From positions 1-64,000 of the forward strand of contig JALGUJ010000007.1 of the NCBI GenBank assembly GCA_029820945.1: DNA of 64,000 bases, given 5' to 3'. A program made the translations under genes and the position numbers. Source of the DNA: Candidatus Zipacnadia bacterium (GTDB lineage: Bacteria > Armatimonadota > Zipacnadia > Zipacnadales > UBA5352). The notes under the pieces are model-generated. The model had not been told where the DNA came from, made no database searches, and saw only the letters and a program-made list of their open reading frames with translations. Below are positions 25,127 to 40,699 of the stretch, one piece after another (within the stretch, counting starts at the first letter, position 1; each line of letters starts with the position of its first letter).

Positions 25127-26002
25127 TCAGGCGCCGAACAGGCGCAACACCTGGTCCTGCCACCAGTCGTAGTAGAGGAACTGCACGCGGCCGATCAGCA
25201 GCGACACGCGCGCCATGACGGTCTGTCCGAACGTCGCACCGAAGGCGACCATGAGGAAAAAGATGCCGACCTTCGACGCCACGCCCAGCGTGCCGGCGTG
25301 CTCGCGGGAGAAGTAGAAGTAGGCGAGGGTGCAGAGCACCCCGGCGATGAGGAGCAGGCTGCTGAAGGCCTCCCACATATGTGGGTCCATGAGGAAGGGC
25401 ACACCGACGACGACCACTCCCCCACCGATCGCTACAAGCGCCCACCCGTCCAGCGCCCTGTCGCGGACGAACGCGACCGCAAGCAGTACGATGCCAACGC
25501 CGCCAATGACGCCACCGGCCAGCGCCCACCACAGGAGGTTGGGCGGCATCGCCACGCCTTCGGAAGGCCACACAGGCAGCAGAGTGGCCTTGAACTGCGG
25601 CAGCATGTAGCCGTAAACGCTGTAGGGGATGTTCAGCCCCGAATACAGACCCATCACGAAGGCGATCGGCCATCGCGACAGCCAGTCGTAGCGGGGGAAG
25701 AAGCGGCTGAACATCAGCAGCCCCAGCAGCCCGGGGATGATGACCACGTAGTTTGGGCTCTCCAGGTCGACGGCCTCGGGCCGGAACAGGGGATCGATCA
25801 GCAGCGGGATGACGGCCTCGTGGTAGGTGATGACGACGCCATACCCGGCGGATACTCCCACGAAGATATGCTCGGCCAGCTTGTAGATAGGGTTGTCGCG
25901 GTACAGGAAGCTGTAGATCGCCAGCGTTAAGAAGGCGGCCAGCCAGACGCCGATGACCTCGGTCGAGAGGCCCCAGATTTCAGGTGCGGCTGCTTCAGGC
26001 AT
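25127..26002 (-). CDS. Polytopic membrane protein of unknown function
   Basis: Multiple hydrophobic helices: VWLAAFLTLAIYSFLYRDNPIYKLAEHIFVGVSAGYGVVITY... Confidence 0.8.
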   Translation of the reverse strand: MPEAAAPEIWGLSTEVIGVWLAAFLTLAIYSFLYRDNPIYKLAEHIFVGVSAGYGVVITYHEAVIPLLIDPLFRPEAVDLESPNYVVIIPGLLGLLMFSRFFPRYDWLSRWPIAFVMGLYSGLNIPYSVYGYMLPQFKATLLPVWPSEGVAMPPNLLWWALAGGVIGGVGIVLLAVAFVRDRALDGWALVAIGGGVVVVGVPFLMDPHMWEAFSSLLLIAGVLCTLAYFYFSREHAGTLGVASKVGIFFLMVAFGATFGQTVMARVSLLIGRVQFLYYDWWQDQVLRLFGA

Positions 26003-33734: not shown

Positions 33735-34187
33735 CTACAGCCGCCGATCCTCAAGCTTGTCGGAGGGCAGGTAGCGTTGGACGAACTGCAGGGCCTGATC
33801 CATGTCGTGGGGGGCGTAGAGCACCAGGACGGAGGGCCGGTGGGGCTGCTTGAAGACCAGCCGCAGCTCGCCCTCGCTGAGCCGCCAGCTCTCGAACTCG
33901 GTCCATCGATACTCGACGTAGTAGAACGGCCCGTGGACCTGAAGCACCTCCGGCTCCAGCACGTAGGTGTACGATGCGTAGAAGGGGATCAGCGCTAGAG
34001 TCACGAAGCCGACGGCCAGCGCGGCGTAGCTGGGCCCGTAGTACATGTTGACCGCGACGGCGAGCACGAACTCGAAGATCACCAGCAGCGCGCAGAGGAG
34101 GGGCGCTTCCGCGGCTCGCCGCGACGACCAAACCAGCTTCGCTCGCCCCGCGGGCTGGTCACGGGGCTCGGCACGGTCATCGTTCAC
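33735..34187 (-). CDS. Two-TM membrane protein with PH-like C-terminal domain
   Basis: PLLCALLVIFEFVLAVAVNMYYGPSYAALAVGFVTLALIPFYASYTYVLEPEVLQVHGPFYYVEYRW. Confidence 0.7.
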   Translation of the reverse strand: MNDDRAEPRDQPAGRAKLVWSSRRAAEAPLLCALLVIFEFVLAVAVNMYYGPSYAALAVGFVTLALIPFYASYTYVLEPEVLQVHGPFYYVEYRWTEFESWRLSEGELRLVFKQPHRPSVLVLYAPHDMDQALQFVQRYLPSDKLEDRRL

Positions 34188-35149
34188 CCCACGGTGACCA
34201 TCTCCCCGTCGCTCGCAACCACGAGTTCGGCCAGCCGCATAGCCTCCACGGCGTCGGCCATGGTCGCAGCGGGCTCGGCCTCCCCCAGGACCGATCTTGC
34301 GAACTGTCCGATCTCCGGCAGGTAGCCGCGGAGATGCCCCATCGTGCTCTCCACGCCGCCAGGACAGGCGCCAGGCCGCCAGGTCATCGTCTCGTCCGTG
34401 TCGCGCCGGCGCAGCGTCAGCGCCAGCCGGTCCTCCACCGTCGCGACTGCATCCCGACTGGCGACCGTGAGGCGCTCCCGCGGGCAGGCGGACGGGGCCG
34501 AGAAGCTGAGACTGCCCAACGCGCCTGATGCAAAACGCAGCACCACCGACGCCGAGGCCTGGCGGTCATCCTGCCGCACCGTGCCGAGCTGCGTCACGTC
34601 GCCGCCGAGGTGCCGCAGCAGGTCGAGCATGTGCGGCAAATCATGGATCAGCGGCTCCTCGTGCCCGGACCTCTCGGGCGGCCACCACACCGCCTCAAGC
34701 GAGACCGGCTGCCCGAAGTCCTGCGCACCCACGACCTCCGCGAGCCGCCGGTAGGCAGGAGCGAAGCGCATCATAAGCCCGACCTGGGCGAGGACGCCCC
34801 GTTCCGCCGCCAGGTCGGCGATGCGCCGGGCCTCCGCCGCCGTTGGAGCGGGTGGCGCCTCGACCCACACATGGCGGCCAAGCTCGATCGCGATCGACGC
34901 GGCCTCGGCATGCATCTCGGGAGGGCCGCAGACCAAGACCGCATCCACGTCCATCTCCTCGATCATCCTGCGCAGGTCCTGATAGGACCTGTAAGCGCCG
35001 AAGCGCCGCGTCATCCGCTGTGCCAGCCGCTTGTCGAGATCGCAGACGGCCGCCAGGTCCAGTCCCGCCCGCCGCACCGCCGGCAACAGCACCTCCGTCG
35101 CGTGCACGCCACAGCCGATAAAGCCGACTCTCACGTCGTTGAGGTCCAT
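34184..35149 (-). CDS. Gfo/Idh/MocA family oxidoreductase
   Basis: VRVGFIGCGVHATEVLLPAVRRAGLDLAAVCDLD; start at 35149; 4-nt overlap with downstream gene. Confidence 0.88.
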   Translation of the reverse strand: MDLNDVRVGFIGCGVHATEVLLPAVRRAGLDLAAVCDLDKRLAQRMTRRFGAYRSYQDLRRMIEEMDVDAVLVCGPPEMHAEAASIAIELGRHVWVEAPPAPTAAEARRIADLAAERGVLAQVGLMMRFAPAYRRLAEVVGAQDFGQPVSLEAVWWPPERSGHEEPLIHDLPHMLDLLRHLGGDVTQLGTVRQDDRQASASVVLRFASGALGSLSFSAPSACPRERLTVASRDAVATVEDRLALTLRRRDTDETMTWRPGACPGGVESTMGHLRGYLPEIGQFARSVLGEAEPAATMADAVEAMRLAELVVASDGEMVTVG

Positions 35150-35759
35150 CCGCGTCTCGTGTCCCCCGATGGTCCGAATGGTCGCTCCATCGGCGTATTC
35201 GGCGCCGGGCAACCCGCTCCCTTCGCCTTCGGCGAACCACCTTCGGACTCCGGCGTCGGCCACAGGTATCTTACCCCGCTGGCGGGTCGAGCTACTCCGC
35301 TATGTCACGACTCCTCTGCATCCTGCCGTACGTGGCGTTCTTGCCGCTGCGTCCTGGGCGCTCCGCGCGGTCGTCGAGCTGCGAGCCGGACCTACGCGGG
35401 GTCGGCGGCCGTTTGCCGTTCTCGTTTGTCGTTGCGGTCCTTGCCGTGGTCGCCCTCGTTGCCGTCGTCGCCGCCGTTCGCCGTGTTGTAGGGCGCGGAC
35501 CCGCGCCGCGCCTGGCGTTGCCGTTGATGCCGCTCACCACCGCGACCCTCCGGGACAGCCTGGGTGGGTCCGTGCCACGGGCGCCTCGCCCGTAGGCCGT
35601 TTGCTCGCACGCGCCGAACGGGCACCCAACGGATGACGTCTATCAGTACGAGCCTGACGAGGCGACGAGCATACCCTTCGGAGGCTCCTCATGTGACGCC
35701 ATCCCTCGGAGCATCGATGGCGGCGGCACCCGAAGCGGACTTCCGCGATCGCTGCGGTT

Positions 35760-35776
35760 TACTATTGACACTAGTA
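35760..35776 (+). promoter_or_regulatory. Operator-like half-palindrome O1a overlapping the -35 box
   Basis: TACTAT-TGACA-CTAGTA (10/12 to TACTAC-N5-GTAGTA). Confidence 0.5.
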
Positions 35777-35793
35777 GTGAGATCGTGTATACT
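35765..35793 (+). promoter_or_regulatory. Consensus sigma-70 promoter
   Basis: TTGACA - 17 bp - TATACT. Confidence 0.8.
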
Positions 35794-35806
35794 ACAGGCC
35801 GTAGTA
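35790..35806 (+). promoter_or_regulatory. Operator-like palindrome O1b
   Basis: TACTAC-AGGCC-GTAGTA, perfect 6-bp arms, overlaps the -10 box end. Confidence 0.75.
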
Positions 35807-35821
35807 GGAGACTGGCGCGCC

Positions 35822-36265
35822 ATGGAGCGAGTGAGGATGGATCGAATCGCGATCGCAGTCCTTGTCATCGGGGCTATCGCCGGTGGCACCGCCGCCCTCG
35901 CGCAGGGGACGACGACAATGTGGTACATCGGGCCCTTCGAGGGTGAGGTCACGGTCAAGGACGGACAGACCCCGGGAACGCCCGGCTACTACTACCACCC
36001 TGAGCCCACACCGACGCCGACCTTCGCCGAGCGCTACGAGCACCCCGTGCGCTGCCAGCACTGCGGGCACTGGCGGGAGCTGGGCGAGGCGTGCCCGTGG
36101 TGCGGCTGCCAGCCCGCTCCGTACGAGCAGGCGCAGGCGCGCAGGGGCGCCGTCTACTCCCCGTACCCCATTCCCGGGCAGTACTGGTACGACAGGCCGA
36201 TGCGCAGCACCACCGGCCCCAAGCACGGGATGGGTTGGCCCTACCTGGGAGCCAGGTACCAGTGA
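35822..36265 (+). CDS. Small secreted protein with zinc-ribbon-like Cys motif
   Basis: MERVRMDRIAIAVLVIGAIAGGTAALAQG signal peptide; CQHCGHWRELGEACPWCGC. Confidence 0.75.
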   Translation: MERVRMDRIAIAVLVIGAIAGGTAALAQGTTTMWYIGPFEGEVTVKDGQTPGTPGYYYHPEPTPTPTFAERYEHPVRCQHCGHWRELGEACPWCGCQPAPYEQAQARRGAVYSPYPIPGQYWYDRPMRSTTGPKHGMGWPYLGARYQ

Positions 36266-36308
36266 TGCCGGGGGACGCCCGATCCAGCGACATGGAGGAG
36301 AGCGCGCC

Positions 36309-36722
36309 ATGAGACGGGTGGTCTGCACCATCGCAATTGGGTGCGCGCTGGCGCTCGGCCTGACGCTGCACGCAGAGGCCCAGCAGCGGCCTGAACAGGC
36401 GCCCCGGGACATCATAGGGCGCCGCATCCAGGGATGGACGGGGAGCGACAGGCCGTACTTCCAGCCGACCCACAGGCCCTTCCAGAGCAGCTACGCGCGC
36501 CGCGTCCGGCGGCAGATGCAGGAGATGTGGCGCGACACGCCGGCCGGGGCGGGCGCGCGCCGCTGGCAGATGCGGTTCGACTCGGAGCGCTCGGCCTGCG
36601 ATTCGGGGCTGGTGCACGCATGGGGCCCGCAGGTTCGCTGCACGCGCATCGTCAAGCGCCACCTCTGGTGCCCGGGCGAGAGCCGGCAGTGGCGGTACGG
36701 CCGGGCCCGGCGTGGCCGGTAG
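36309..36722 (+). CDS. Small secreted basic protein, unknown function
   Basis: MRRVVCTIAIGCALALGLTLHAEAQ signal peptide; ATG 36309. Confidence 0.7.
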   Translation: MRRVVCTIAIGCALALGLTLHAEAQQRPEQAPRDIIGRRIQGWTGSDRPYFQPTHRPFQSSYARRVRRQMQEMWRDTPAGAGARRWQMRFDSERSACDSGLVHAWGPQVRCTRIVKRHLWCPGESRQWRYGRARRGR

Positions 36723-36816
36723 ACCCCGGTGACACGCCGGCGGGCGAAGATTCGGAGCAAGCGCGCAGGCCCTGTAACCTTGGTATCCCGACAGTCGAAT
36801 GAACACCGGACGTAGC

Positions 36817-36833
36817 TACTACGTCCAATAGTA
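36817..36833 (+). promoter_or_regulatory. Operator-like palindrome O2
   Basis: TACTAC-GTCCA-ATAGTA (11/12 to TACTAC-N5-GTAGTA). Confidence 0.65.
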
Positions 36834-36880
36834 GTGAAGGGACGCGAAGCTACGGCAGTCCCCTGAAAGGAGAGGCTGAG

Positions 36881-37357
36881 ATGGTGACCAGAGGCATGAT
36901 CCTGACCCTTGCATTCGTGGTGGCCTCGACCCTCACGCTGGGCGGGGTAGCCCCCCAGCCGGCCGAGGCGGACGACACCGGACGGATCCTTGCCGGCCTC
37001 GCCGCAGGCGCGCTCGTCTACGGCTTGCTCGGCGACCACGACAACGACCATTACCGCTCCCGCGGATACTACGACGGGAACCGGCAGAGCTGGACCCAAC
37101 ATCACGAGAACATCCGCAGGTACGGACATAGCGGCAGTCAACGCTCGTACCACCGTCAAGGCTCGTCGCAGCGCCGTGCCTACGAGCACGGCTGGCACAA
37201 CGGCTACGATCGCGGCTTCGATCACGGCCATGACGTCGGCTACCATCGCGGCTGGAACAATGGCTTCGACTACGGGTACGACCGTGGCTACGATCACGGC
37301 TTCGACGATGGCTACGACCGCGGGCGCCGGTCGAGTTGGGGCTGCTGGGGCTACTAG
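36881..37357 (+). CDS. Secreted protein with 12 tandem [aromatic/His]-x-x-Gly tetrapeptide repeats
   Basis: Signal/hydrophobic N-terminus, then YEHG WHNG YDRG FDHG HDVG YHRG WNNG FDYG YDRG YDHG FDDG YDRG. Confidence 0.8.
   Translation: MVTRGMILTLAFVVASTLTLGGVAPQPAEADDTGRILAGLAAGALVYGLLGDHDNDHYRSRGYYDGNRQSWTQHHENIRRYGHSGSQRSYHRQGSSQRRAYEHGWHNGYDRGFDHGHDVGYHRGWNNGFDYGYDRGYDHGFDDGYDRGRRSSWGCWGY
37181..37324 (+). repeat. 12 x 12-bp coding repeat encoding aromatic-x-x-Gly units
   Basis: Residues 101-148 of the 36881..37357 product. Confidence 0.85.
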
Positions 37358-37369
37358 CGACGCATCCCA

Positions 37370-37398
37370 GGCCTCGCAGACACGCGAGGCCGCTTTTT
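37370..37398 (+). terminator. Rho-independent terminator
   Basis: GGCCTCGC-agacac-GCGAGGCC then GCTTTTT. Confidence 0.9.
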
Positions 37399-37408
37399 CG
37401 GCCCAAAC

Positions 37409-37425
37409 TACTACCGGCGGTAGTA
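37409..37425 (+). promoter_or_regulatory. Operator-like palindrome O3
   Basis: TACTAC-CGGCG-GTAGTA; arms extend to TACTACCG-g-CGGTAGTA. Confidence 0.75.
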
Positions 37426-37506
37426 ACAACGGGGAGGCAAGGACGAACCACCGGGCGTGATGACAACAAGCAAGCGCACGCATGCGCGGAGAGGCGGGTG
37501 AGTTCG

Positions 37507-38034
37507 ATGATCAGGACATTGCTGACTTCGCTCGCGGTGACAACTCTGGTGGTGGTCCCGGCCCTTGCGGGCCTGGGCATGGACGCGGTGTCGGCCAACC
37601 CCGACTTCGGCGACCCGCAGTTCGTGTGGCACCTGCAGCAGGACGTGGGCCTGGCTGATCGTCCAGCACAGGGCAAGCGGCCCTGCCCCACGGTGCGCGG
37701 CGTGCCCATCCCGACCTCGTGGGGCCACCAGTGGCGGCCGCAGAACGAGTGGATGCGCTACGTGGACCGCCACGGCTACCCGCCCAAGTGCAAGCGCTGC
37801 GACGCCACCGAGACGCCGGATCAGAAGTGGCAGAGCCACGTGCAGCGCTACCGGGCGTTCCTGATCAACCATCCGTATGACGGCGGCCGCAACTGGCACA
37901 GGATACACAGCCACTTCGTCCAGTACATGGAGCAGAACTGGTACAACTACTGGCACCGGCTGCGCTACGGCAGTAACCCGGACAACCACACGAGCCACTA
38001 CTATGGATGGGGATGGGGGCGCGAGGGATGGTGA
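37507..38034 (+). CDS. Secreted protein with CxxC motif, aromatic/His-rich C-terminus; unknown function
   Basis: MIRTLLTSLAVTTLVVVPALAGLGMDAVSA signal; CKRCDATETP; HSHFVQYMEQNWYNYWHRLRYG. Confidence 0.75.
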   Translation: MIRTLLTSLAVTTLVVVPALAGLGMDAVSANPDFGDPQFVWHLQQDVGLADRPAQGKRPCPTVRGVPIPTSWGHQWRPQNEWMRYVDRHGYPPKCKRCDATETPDQKWQSHVQRYRAFLINHPYDGGRNWHRIHSHFVQYMEQNWYNYWHRLRYGSNPDNHTSHYYGWGWGREGW

Positions 38035-38074
38035 TACCTGCCAACCCCGGCTGAGCCGGGACGATCTCCAGCCA

Positions 38075-38104
38075 GCGGGCCCGTCTCGTGAGAGGCGGGC
38101 CCGC
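38075..38104 (+). terminator. Strong hairpin, probable terminator (no U tract)
   Basis: GCGGGCCCGTCTC-GTGA-GAGGCGGGCCCGC: 13-bp stem (one G-T), GNRA loop. Confidence 0.65.
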
Positions 38105-38209
38105 CCACGTGCCCCCGCAGGAATCCCCGCTGCGCTCGCGAACCTGCCTACCAGCCGCCTTCCACTCAAAGGCGACCCGTCACTGCCGGCGATGCGAGGT
38201 GATCGTCTC

Positions 38210-40699
38210 ATGCTCAGAGCCACTGCCCTCCCGGCCCTGACCTGCGCCCTGCTGGCGGCAGGTGTCGCCGCGCCGCAGGAAGGCCTGATCCTCCACGTCT
38301 CCATGGACGGCAACGATGCGTGGTCGGGGCGACCGGCCGTCCCCAACGATGCCGGCGACGACGGCCCCTTCGCGACTATCGCCCGCGCACGCGACGCCAT
38401 CCGCGAGCTTCGCGCCGAAGATGGCCTGGACGGGCCGGTCACCGTGCAAATCCGCGGCGGCATATACCTCATCGACGAGACGATTCGCTTCGAGCCCGAG
38501 GACTCCGGCACGGAGGACGCGCCCATCTCCTACGTGGCCTTCCCCGGCGAGCGGCCCGAGCTGGTGGGCGGCAGGCGGATCGCCGGCCTCACCCCGGGCG
38601 AGGACGGGGTGCTTCGCGTCGAGCTGCCGGAGGTCCGCGAGGCTGACTGGTACTTCCGCCAGCTCTTCGTGGACGGCGTGCGGCAGGTCCGCGCGCGCCA
38701 CCCGAACTTCGACCCCGAGCGCCCCTACCGCGGCGGCTTCCTCTACGTGCACCGCGCCCTGGGCGGCTTCGGATCCGGCGTCGGCAACATCCACAACCGT
38801 GGCGACCGCCTCGACTACATTGTGGACATCCCCGCGGACGGCGAATACGCCGTGTGGGTCCGCTACGGCGCGCATAACGAGCCGTTCGGCCGCACGAAGA
38901 TGGATGGGCGCACCGCGCTGACGGTGGATGACGACGAGCCGGTGCCACTGATGAACCTGCCGGACACAGGACGCTGGACGGCCGACACCTGGAGCAAGAC
39001 CGCGACGCTGAACGTCACTGCGGGCGAGCACCGCATCCGCTGGCAGAACCTGCAGGGCGGTGGGCTGGACCTCGACGCCTTCGCGCTCAGCGATGACCCC
39101 GACTGGACGCCCGAGGGCACGTCGCTGGCCGAGCCTGCCGAGGGCCGCCACGTGGTGGTCTTCCACGCGGAGGACTTCGTCGAGTGTGAGGGGCCGCAGA
39201 TCTCGACCAGTGGCGGCGGCAGCAAGACGCAGTTCCGCTACGCGCCGGGCGAGTTCAAGCCCTCATGGGCCGACGCGCCCGGCGCCGAGCTGCACATCTT
39301 CCAGTCGGGCTCGTGCCGCGCCTTCAAGGAGATCGTGGCCATCGAGAGCGTGGACGAGCGCCTCCGGACGGTCACGCTCTCCGGGACCGAGTGCGTTGCG
39401 GGGCTCGGGACCGGCGACCGCTACTTCGTCGAGAACATCCGCGAGGAGCTGGACGCTCCCGGCGAGTGGTACCTCGACCGCGAGGCGGGAGTGCTGTCGC
39501 TCATCCCCCCGGAGGGCTTCGGCGACGAGTCAGAGGTCATCGCGCCGGCGGTCGGGCGGCTGATCGAGTTCGCAGGCAGGGAGGATGCCCCGGTCGAGCA
39601 CATCAGGCTCTCCGGTCTGACCGTCCGCTGCACCGACTACTCTCCCGAGGACGGCTGCGGAGGCTACGGCATGGGGACTGAGGGCGTGCTGCACCTCGCC
39701 CATGCGGCCAACTGCGCGGTCGAGCACTGTACCTTCACGAACATCGGCCGCTACGCCGTCTGCCTGGCGGGCGGCGAGGGCAATCGCGTCGAGGGCTGCG
39801 ACATCTCCGAGAGCGCCGAGGGCGGCGTGCTGATCATCGGCTCGGCCCGCAACACCGTCCGCGACAACCACATCCACCACTGCGGGGCGGTCTACAAGCA
39901 CATCGGCGGAGTCGTCATCACGCAGCCGGGCAGCGACGAGAACCTCATCGCGCACAACCTCATCCATCACATGTCGCGCTACGGCATCACGATCAAGAAC
40001 GGCGGCCTGCGCAATACCATCGAGTTCAACCACGTGCACCACACGAACCTGGAGACCTACGACACCGGCGCCATCGAGGTCACTCAGCACGACCCCGAGC
40101 TTCGCTCGGGCAGCGTCATCCGCAACAACATCGTCGGCGACACGGTCGGCTGGTACGCGCAGGGACCCGACAGGTCGGTGCACCTGTCCTGGGCCATCTA
40201 CCTCGACTCCTACGCCGGCGGCTACACGGTGACCCACAACATCACCTACCGCAACTCCCACGGCGGCATCATGCTCCAGGGCGGCAAGGACAACGTGGTG
40301 ACCAACAACATCTTCGTGGAGTCGACCGTGAGCCAGATGCTGATCGCGAACTTCCGCGGCAACTCGACCGGCGAGGTGCTGGAGCGCAACGTCGTCTACT
40401 GGACGGACCCGGAGGCCGCGGCGGTGCGCACCGGGACGCTTGAGCCCGACACGATCAGCGTGGACCACAACCTCTACTGGTGCCCGGACGTGGAGGAGCT
40501 GCCCATGGCCGCACGCGGCGTGGCCTCCTTCGCCGAGTGGCAGGAGCGCGGCTACGACGTGCACTCCGTGATCGCCGACCCGCGCTTCGTCGCCCCTGAG
40601 CGCGACGACTACAGGCTACAGGCCGACTCGCCCGCCTTCACGCTCGGCTTCCGCCAGATCGACACCGGCACGGTCGGCCTGCTCACGCCCCGGCAGTGA
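38210..40699 (+). CDS. Secreted right-handed parallel beta-helix protein (pectate-lyase-like fold)
   Basis: LILHVSMDGNDAWSGRPA...DGPFATIARARDAIRELR; repeated beta-helix segments (NRVEGCDISESAEGGVLIIGSARNTVRDNHIHHCG). Confidence 0.87.
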   Translation: MLRATALPALTCALLAAGVAAPQEGLILHVSMDGNDAWSGRPAVPNDAGDDGPFATIARARDAIRELRAEDGLDGPVTVQIRGGIYLIDETIRFEPEDSGTEDAPISYVAFPGERPELVGGRRIAGLTPGEDGVLRVELPEVREADWYFRQLFVDGVRQVRARHPNFDPERPYRGGFLYVHRALGGFGSGVGNIHNRGDRLDYIVDIPADGEYAVWVRYGAHNEPFGRTKMDGRTALTVDDDEPVPLMNLPDTGRWTADTWSKTATLNVTAGEHRIRWQNLQGGGLDLDAFALSDDPDWTPEGTSLAEPAEGRHVVVFHAEDFVECEGPQISTSGGGSKTQFRYAPGEFKPSWADAPGAELHIFQSGSCRAFKEIVAIESVDERLRTVTLSGTECVAGLGTGDRYFVENIREELDAPGEWYLDREAGVLSLIPPEGFGDESEVIAPAVGRLIEFAGREDAPVEHIRLSGLTVRCTDYSPEDGCGGYGMGTEGVLHLAHAANCAVEHCTFTNIGRYAVCLAGGEGNRVEGCDISESAEGGVLIIGSARNTVRDNHIHHCGAVYKHIGGVVITQPGSDENLIAHNLIHHMSRYGITIKNGGLRNTIEFNHVHHTNLETYDTGAIEVTQHDPELRSGSVIRNNIVGDTVGWYAQGPDRSVHLSWAIYLDSYAGGYTVTHNITYRNSHGGIMLQGGKDNVVTNNIFVESTVSQMLIANFRGNSTGEVLERNVVYWTDPEAAAVRTGTLEPDTISVDHNLYWCPDVEELPMAARGVASFAEWQERGYDVHSVIADPRFVAPERDDYRLQADSPAFTLGFRQIDTGTVGLLTPRQ

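Follow-up and report, generated by a model that had tools for sequence, protein, structure and literature searches.

Four TACTA-N7-TAGTA dyads before secreted-protein genes as probable operators of a BlaI-type repressor in Candidatus Zipacnadia

We analysed a window of 64 kb out of a 78-kb contig (C135) in a MAG of Candidatus Zipacnadia. The window carries four dyads of the form TACTA-N7-TAGTA, and with a probability of about 0.88 we read them as operators of the genome's single BlaI-family repressor, which would be releasable via an M56 peptidase. The TACTA-N7-TAGTA set as a whole very probably constitutes the regulon of this BlaI-type repressor, because the same sites recur across the order before the gene for one BlaI-type repressor. 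Zipacnadia is the GTDB class UBA5377, known from anoxic sediments (PMC10290634). The assembly has 5.35 Mb in 203 contigs and is 90.7% complete and 7.4% contaminated.

BlaI-BlaR1 is the textbook system of beta-lactam resistance; most BlaI-M56 pairs found in nature, however, belong to uncultured bacteria and have no resistance genes nearby. For one such pair, a regulon has now been delimited from sequence alone. Its make-up suggests that it serves envelope composition or stress. It holds about six conserved target families with functions unassigned and, under the same predicted control, a new structured RNA. The kind of control is already known; what is new is the motif, the set of targets, the short M56 protein, the overlap with ECF-type promoters and the RNA.

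Operators and genes in the window

An earlier note on this DNA had described four sites of identical geometry, TACTAC-N5-GTAGTA, each upstream of a signal-peptide gene. All four were found at the claimed coordinates (Table 1). The site at 35760 departs by two bases from TACTAC/GTAGTA, yet it fits the refined TACTA-N7-TAGTA exactly, as do the other three. The core motif is TACTA...TAGTA, with Y/R free at positions 6 and 12. The promoter that the note had called perfect at the first two sites is exact. The A1/A2-type pair, 30-31 bp apart, is kept in G004, G006, G007, G008, G017 and G022. A1 and A2 lie on this sigma-70 promoter, but the sites at 36817 and 37409 overlap no recognisable sigma-70 promoter.

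Table 1. Operators, promoter elements, genes and terminator in the window
Feature	Position	Strand	Description
Operator A1	35760..35776	.	TACTATTGACACTAGTA; gene A -35 box lies inside
Gene A -35 box	35765..35770	+	TTGACA; best promoter in sigma-70 scoring, 17-bp spacer
Gene A -10 box	35788..35793	+	TATACT; overlaps operator A2
Operator A2	35790..35806	.	TACTACAGGCCGTAGTA; 30 bp from A1
Gene A	35822..36265	+	Secreted, 147 aa; CxxC...CxxC zinc-ribbon-like pattern; alternative start 35837
Gene 2	36309..36722	+	Secreted, 137 aa; without a site of its own
Gene B -35 element	36801..36804	+	GAAC, ECF-type
Operator B	36817..36833	.	TACTACGTCCAATAGTA; ECF-type -10 CGTC inside, 36822-36825
Gene B	36881..37357	+	Secreted, 158 aa; glycine-zipper-like segment, then Tyr/Asp/Gly repeats
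Gene B intrinsic terminator	37370..37398	+	GGCCTCGC...GCGAGGCC, then T-run; operator C directly next
Operator C	37409..37425	.	TACTACCGGCGGTAGTA; without recognised promoter
Gene C	37507..38034	+	Secreted, 175 aa

Assigning gene starts and signal peptides by simple rules, we find that every product downstream of a site begins with a hydrophobic signal-peptide-like segment, as claimed. No window protein scored above a Pfam or NCBIfam cut-off. Gene A matched only a zinc ribbon in Pfam, below threshold, and searches of Pfam and NCBIfam gave no match for gene 2 or gene C. Gene 2 is probably co-transcribed with gene A. For gene B, FliH and Yae1 were rejected as repeat-composition matches far under the cut-offs.

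The motif across the genome and its BlaI repressor

The TACTA-N7-TAGTA motif has seven exact sites in the genome, all before genes: the four in the window together with C79:3517, C125:20447 and C179:26243. An any-gap search from N2 to N14 gave the same seven, so none of the twelve other spacings yields a single site genome-wide. The motif is not at background frequency: its seven sites are all gene-upstream, and none has another spacing.

Four sites inside 1.7 kb might still be chance dyads or copies of a repeat element spread through the genome. We regard this as next to negligible, since the window holds five matches to TACTACNNNNNGTAGTA at up to two mismatches (the fifth, at 25158, inside coding DNA) against 0.06 expected from shuffles, the flanks are unrelated, the spacing is single, positions 6 and 12 are 92% pyrimidine and purine, respectively, although they were not fixed in the search, and the motif is found across the order.

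The site at C79:3517 has a one-mismatch partner at C79:3498, and the pair, 19 bp apart, lies between a lipoprotein gene and dtd. This spacing (L012:3498-3533) is unlike that of the 30-bp pair of gene A; another 19-bp pair was seen at G026:C561. Beyond the exact list, ten one-mismatch sites were inspected, and seven of them lie inside coding frames. The site at C114:39782 (L218:1283-1299; TACGATAGGCGATAGTA) stands after GAAC-N17-CGTC and 35 nt before a gene for a CsgG-like secreted protein, a context in which it probably marks a further target. For the site at C182:8378, which lies between genes, we recognised no gene downstream, and C188:28754 is ambiguous.

The earlier note had proposed a repressor of the BlaI/MecI/CopY type and had seen no such regulator in the window. 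No BlaI gene is present there; searching for regulators of the family, we found one elsewhere in the genome, on contig C125, with an operator before its own gene. This is the single PF03965 gene of the genome (C125:20600; 157 aa; 87.7 bits against a cut-off of 22.6). Next to it, with a start/stop overlap of TGATG, lies the single PF05569 gene (M56, BlaR1-type peptidase; C125:21442; 42.7 bits against 31), whose product carries HERAH (HExxH). The site at C125:20447 encloses the -10 box of the blaI promoter, TGGACA-17-TATAAT: the operator reads TAC[TATAAT]AGGTAGTA and begins its -10 box 17 bp after TGGACA, likewise in relatives. Contig C125 could be mis-binned in a MAG with this level of contamination, but the same arrangement recurs in many other genomes.

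Of the proposed family, the BlaI side is supported by the sole PF03965 gene and by the motif over its own promoter; the CopY side is not. The protein has no cysteine and hence no CxC metal site, and for this reason we class it as BlaI-like and not CopY-like. Against the CopY_TcrY model it reached 39.8 bits, under the cut-off of 122. CopY-type copper control was rejected on the missing CxC and on a different operator. The closest solved structure is 2g9w (M. tuberculosis), and the profile also reaches staphylococcal BlaI and MecI. In the cleavage-bond region the Phe is conserved, with Tyr before it at P1 (Asn in S. aureus), a difference that weighs against the main reading.

The M56 protein has 338 aa, with a C-terminal hydrophobic segment near its end. 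Its match to the BlaR1 model (585 positions) is confined to positions 172-251, in the peptidase part, and no transpeptidase or penicillin-binding sensor domain was found; the M56 partners in relatives likewise have ~330-360 aa. Because the M56 partner has no penicillin-binding domain, the signal is probably not sensed through one. Direct sensing of beta-lactams is unlikely, and a response to cell-wall damage remains compatible.

We then compared relatives. The repressor's named relatives come from Candidatus Zipacnadia and candidate division WS1, in Armatimonadota. A search of the literature available to us gave no paper that treats BlaI in this phylum. Per genome we counted 4-9 exact sites within the family, 0-11 within the order and 0-2 in the rest of the phylum, where G042 (same class, outside the order; 7 exact sites) is the exception. 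Full-length BlaI is encoded in 32 of the order's 41 genomes; at least three sites were present in 31 of these 32 and in none of the nine genomes lacking BlaI (Fisher p = 3e-8, a value that overstates independence, the genomes being related). Every blaI gene examined that encodes the YTT(I/V)MTT helix has a site 200-330 bp upstream of the helix codon, with one mismatch in G016 and G042. Eight BlaI loci of other subtypes showed no site. Within family f3, sites vanish where blaI does. Against the main reading stands G021 (L080), which has a full-length BlaI, of another subtype by regex, and no TACTA-N7-TAGTA sites.

When the best gene downstream of every exact site was clustered, we recovered blaI in 18 genomes, gene A in 15, the lipoprotein next to dtd in 13 and gene C in 4 by similarity and 7 by position, plus a tail of other exported proteins. 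Gene A has orthologues in 15 genomes with a site before each, gene B homologues follow a site at 15 loci (14 genomes), and gene C orthologues do so in G005, G006 and G007. The window's secreted-protein genes keep their sites across genera. Neither background frequency nor a lack of conservation before orthologues, the two outcomes that the note had named as refuting it, was observed. The claimed control of small secreted proteins is supported, but it was too narrow, as a lipoprotein and a structured RNA also fall in the regulon. The targets gave no match to beta-lactamase, and no beta-lactamase, PBP or other antibiotic-resistance gene was recognised among them.

A different dimeric regulator might read the motif, with blaI merely one of its targets; an unrelated protein could have the same distribution, and BlaI binding is a prediction. 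We consider this quite improbable, because the sites disappear with blaI inside f3 and are absent with other BlaI subtypes, and the spacing and core agree with a mapped BlaI (C. thermocellum). An operator over its own promoter is, moreover, usual for the BlaI family (PMC8457756).

Promoters under the operators, a structured RNA and the proposed circuit

Using a simple sigma-70 score (12 positions, threshold at least 9), we found near-consensus promoters at 64% of sites versus 0.2% of control windows; the operator itself contributes to this score, in which TACTAT-like letters count, but the TTGACA half lies mostly outside the operator. The registers differ between targets. For blaI the -10 box is at operator +3; for gene A the -35 box is at operator 1 +5 (likewise in other genomes) and the -10 box at operator 2 -2; for the lipoprotein the -10 box is mostly at operator +10 or +5. 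The system illustrates how promoter boxes can themselves make up a repressor site, each target keeping its own fixed register.

A sigma-70 promoter was sought at the gene B, gene C and C179:26243 sites and not found. The sequence GAAC stands exactly 16 bp before the operator at seven gene B sites and at five sites of the RNA described below in the family, and CGTC occupies operator positions 6-9 in all but one of these 12 sites, giving GAAC-N17-CGTC at two unrelated targets. This is the usual shape of ECF-sigma promoters, and the promoters of gene B and the RNA appear to be ECF-type, a sigma assignment made from the short consensus alone. Operators overlap either sigma-70 promoters or ECF-type ones; operator C shows neither, a point against the main reading. 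Of the 14 sigma region-4 genes only one, an ECF sigma gene at C179:2325-2480 (minus strand; L204), has GAAC-N16-CGTC directly upstream. It lies ~24 kb from the RNA and might supply the sigma factor that serves gene B and the RNA, which is a lead only.

Operators B and C could instead be roadblocks or internal elements in one operon running from A to C, not covering promoters of their own. Neither has a sigma-70 promoter, and operator C directly follows a terminator also in G001, G003, G005, G007 and G009. This arrangement seems unlikely to us, given the ECF-type promoter at site B and the same layout at gene B and the RNA, which are on separate contigs. The terminator before site C also implies that gene C needs its own start.

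Behind the C179:26243 operator we find a conserved element of ~100 nt (G000:C179:26260-26366; L013:4261-4367). It replaced gene E as the target of this site, because G002 and G003 keep the RNA but not the reading frame. The element has the shape of a three-way junction with a C-rich loop, CCCUCCCUCC, and its fold is better than those of shuffled sequences (z -4.1 to -6.7). Rfam 15 at gathering score gave no match in five RNA loci, nor in window positions 34000-39500. Covariance-model searches recovered it from 8 of the family's 10 genomes and, in another family of the order, from 10 genomes. In the closing helix of 19 sequences, 11/11 pairs have changes on both sides and 95% of cells pair. The covariation score was 0.40 versus 0.14 for shuffles and at most 0.15 for slid structures, with an alignment fitted to the model and so favouring the structure, and with the f3 sequences outside the seed.

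In f3 the element comes after GGAAC-N17-CGTCTATA with no operator, including in genomes without BlaI; both G008 copies likewise have this promoter and no operator. An ECF promoter has therefore either gained the operator or lost it. Several f3 elements have T-rich stretches after the closing stem, in keeping with a small RNA that carries its own terminator. The loop CCCUCCCUCC might pair with ribosome-binding sites.

These promoters raise the question of whether part of the set is really induced by an ECF sigma factor, so that gene B and the RNA need both the active sigma factor and BlaI removal, with the motif acting as a gate over an older ECF regulon. We think this rather probable. The CGTC of GAAC-N17-CGTC lies inside the operator at gene B and the RNA, the RNA keeps its ECF-type promoter where BlaI and operator are absent, and the C179:2325 sigma gene carries a similar element before itself, but the consensus behind the sigma assignment is short. 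Since gene A, blaI and the lipoprotein have sigma-70-like promoters, an ECF gate adds to BlaI repression as the best explanation and does not replace it.

In the circuit that we propose, a BlaI dimer would bind each TACTA-N7-TAGTA dyad, with a pair of dimers at gene A. Bound BlaI would block RNA polymerase, because the dyads physically contain -35 or -10 boxes, and would also repress its own blaI-M56 operon. By analogy with BlaR1, an envelope signal would activate the membrane M56 peptidase and BlaI would be inactivated, presumably by proteolysis, leading to joint derepression of the secreted proteins, the lipoprotein and the structured RNA. More tentatively, BlaI with its sensor-less M56 may be superimposed on an ECF-sigma regulon, such that several exported proteins and the three-way-junction RNA would be produced only if two independent envelope signals coincide; this RNA, through its C-rich loop complementary to ribosome-binding sites, might regulate translation of envelope genes like the enterobacterial sigma-E small RNAs.

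Comparison with known systems

The BlaI-BlaR1 and MecI-MecR1 systems of Staphylococcus and Bacillus share with this one a PF03965 winged-helix repressor (homologous to 1sd4, 1okr and 1p6r), an adjacent M56 protein with HExxH, operators over -35 and -10 boxes, and the expected autoregulation. The classic operator is described as TACA/TGTA (PMC7253601), in contrast to TACTA-N7-TAGTA here. Our system also differs in its M56 protein of 338 aa without a penicillin-binding domain, in having Tyr and not Asn ahead of the conserved Phe at the cleavage bond, and in targets among which no beta-lactamase or PBP was recognised.

The repressor closest in solved structure is M. tuberculosis BlaI (Rv1846c, PDB 2g9w). 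That protein, too, controls a broader regulon and has an M56 partner of short length. Among its targets are blaC and ATP synthase genes (PMC12565901); secreted proteins of the kind seen here are not known to be among them. CopY/CopR belongs to the same protein superfamily and has paired operators, distal and proximal, across -35 and -10 boxes (PMC7253601). Its operator is RNYKACANNTGTMRNY (PMC7253601) and not TACTA-N7-TAGTA, and its C-terminal CxC metal sites are absent here.

The mapped repressor most like ours is Clostridium thermocellum BlaI_0696; by DAP-seq and EMSA it binds GTCTAT inverted repeats five nucleotides apart, with two dyads per target (PMC8457756). The likeness is close: half-sites with a CTAT core five nucleotides apart in the same geometry, a site over the repressor's own operon, two dyads per target (here at gene A) and BlaR1-type partner genes. 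The C. thermocellum regulons, however, comprise one to three operons and are read as a beta-lactam response, whereas the present regulon has six or more targets, secreted proteins for the most part, and single dyads also stand before conserved targets.

For the RNA, the nearest parallels are RybB and MicA of E. coli, which are ECF-sigma-dependent regulatory RNAs. Like them, it has an envelope-stress-type promoter before a short structured RNA, and its C-rich loop could pair with ribosome-binding sites. Unlike them, it is unrelated in sequence to any Rfam family and has the operator of a second regulator over its -10 element.
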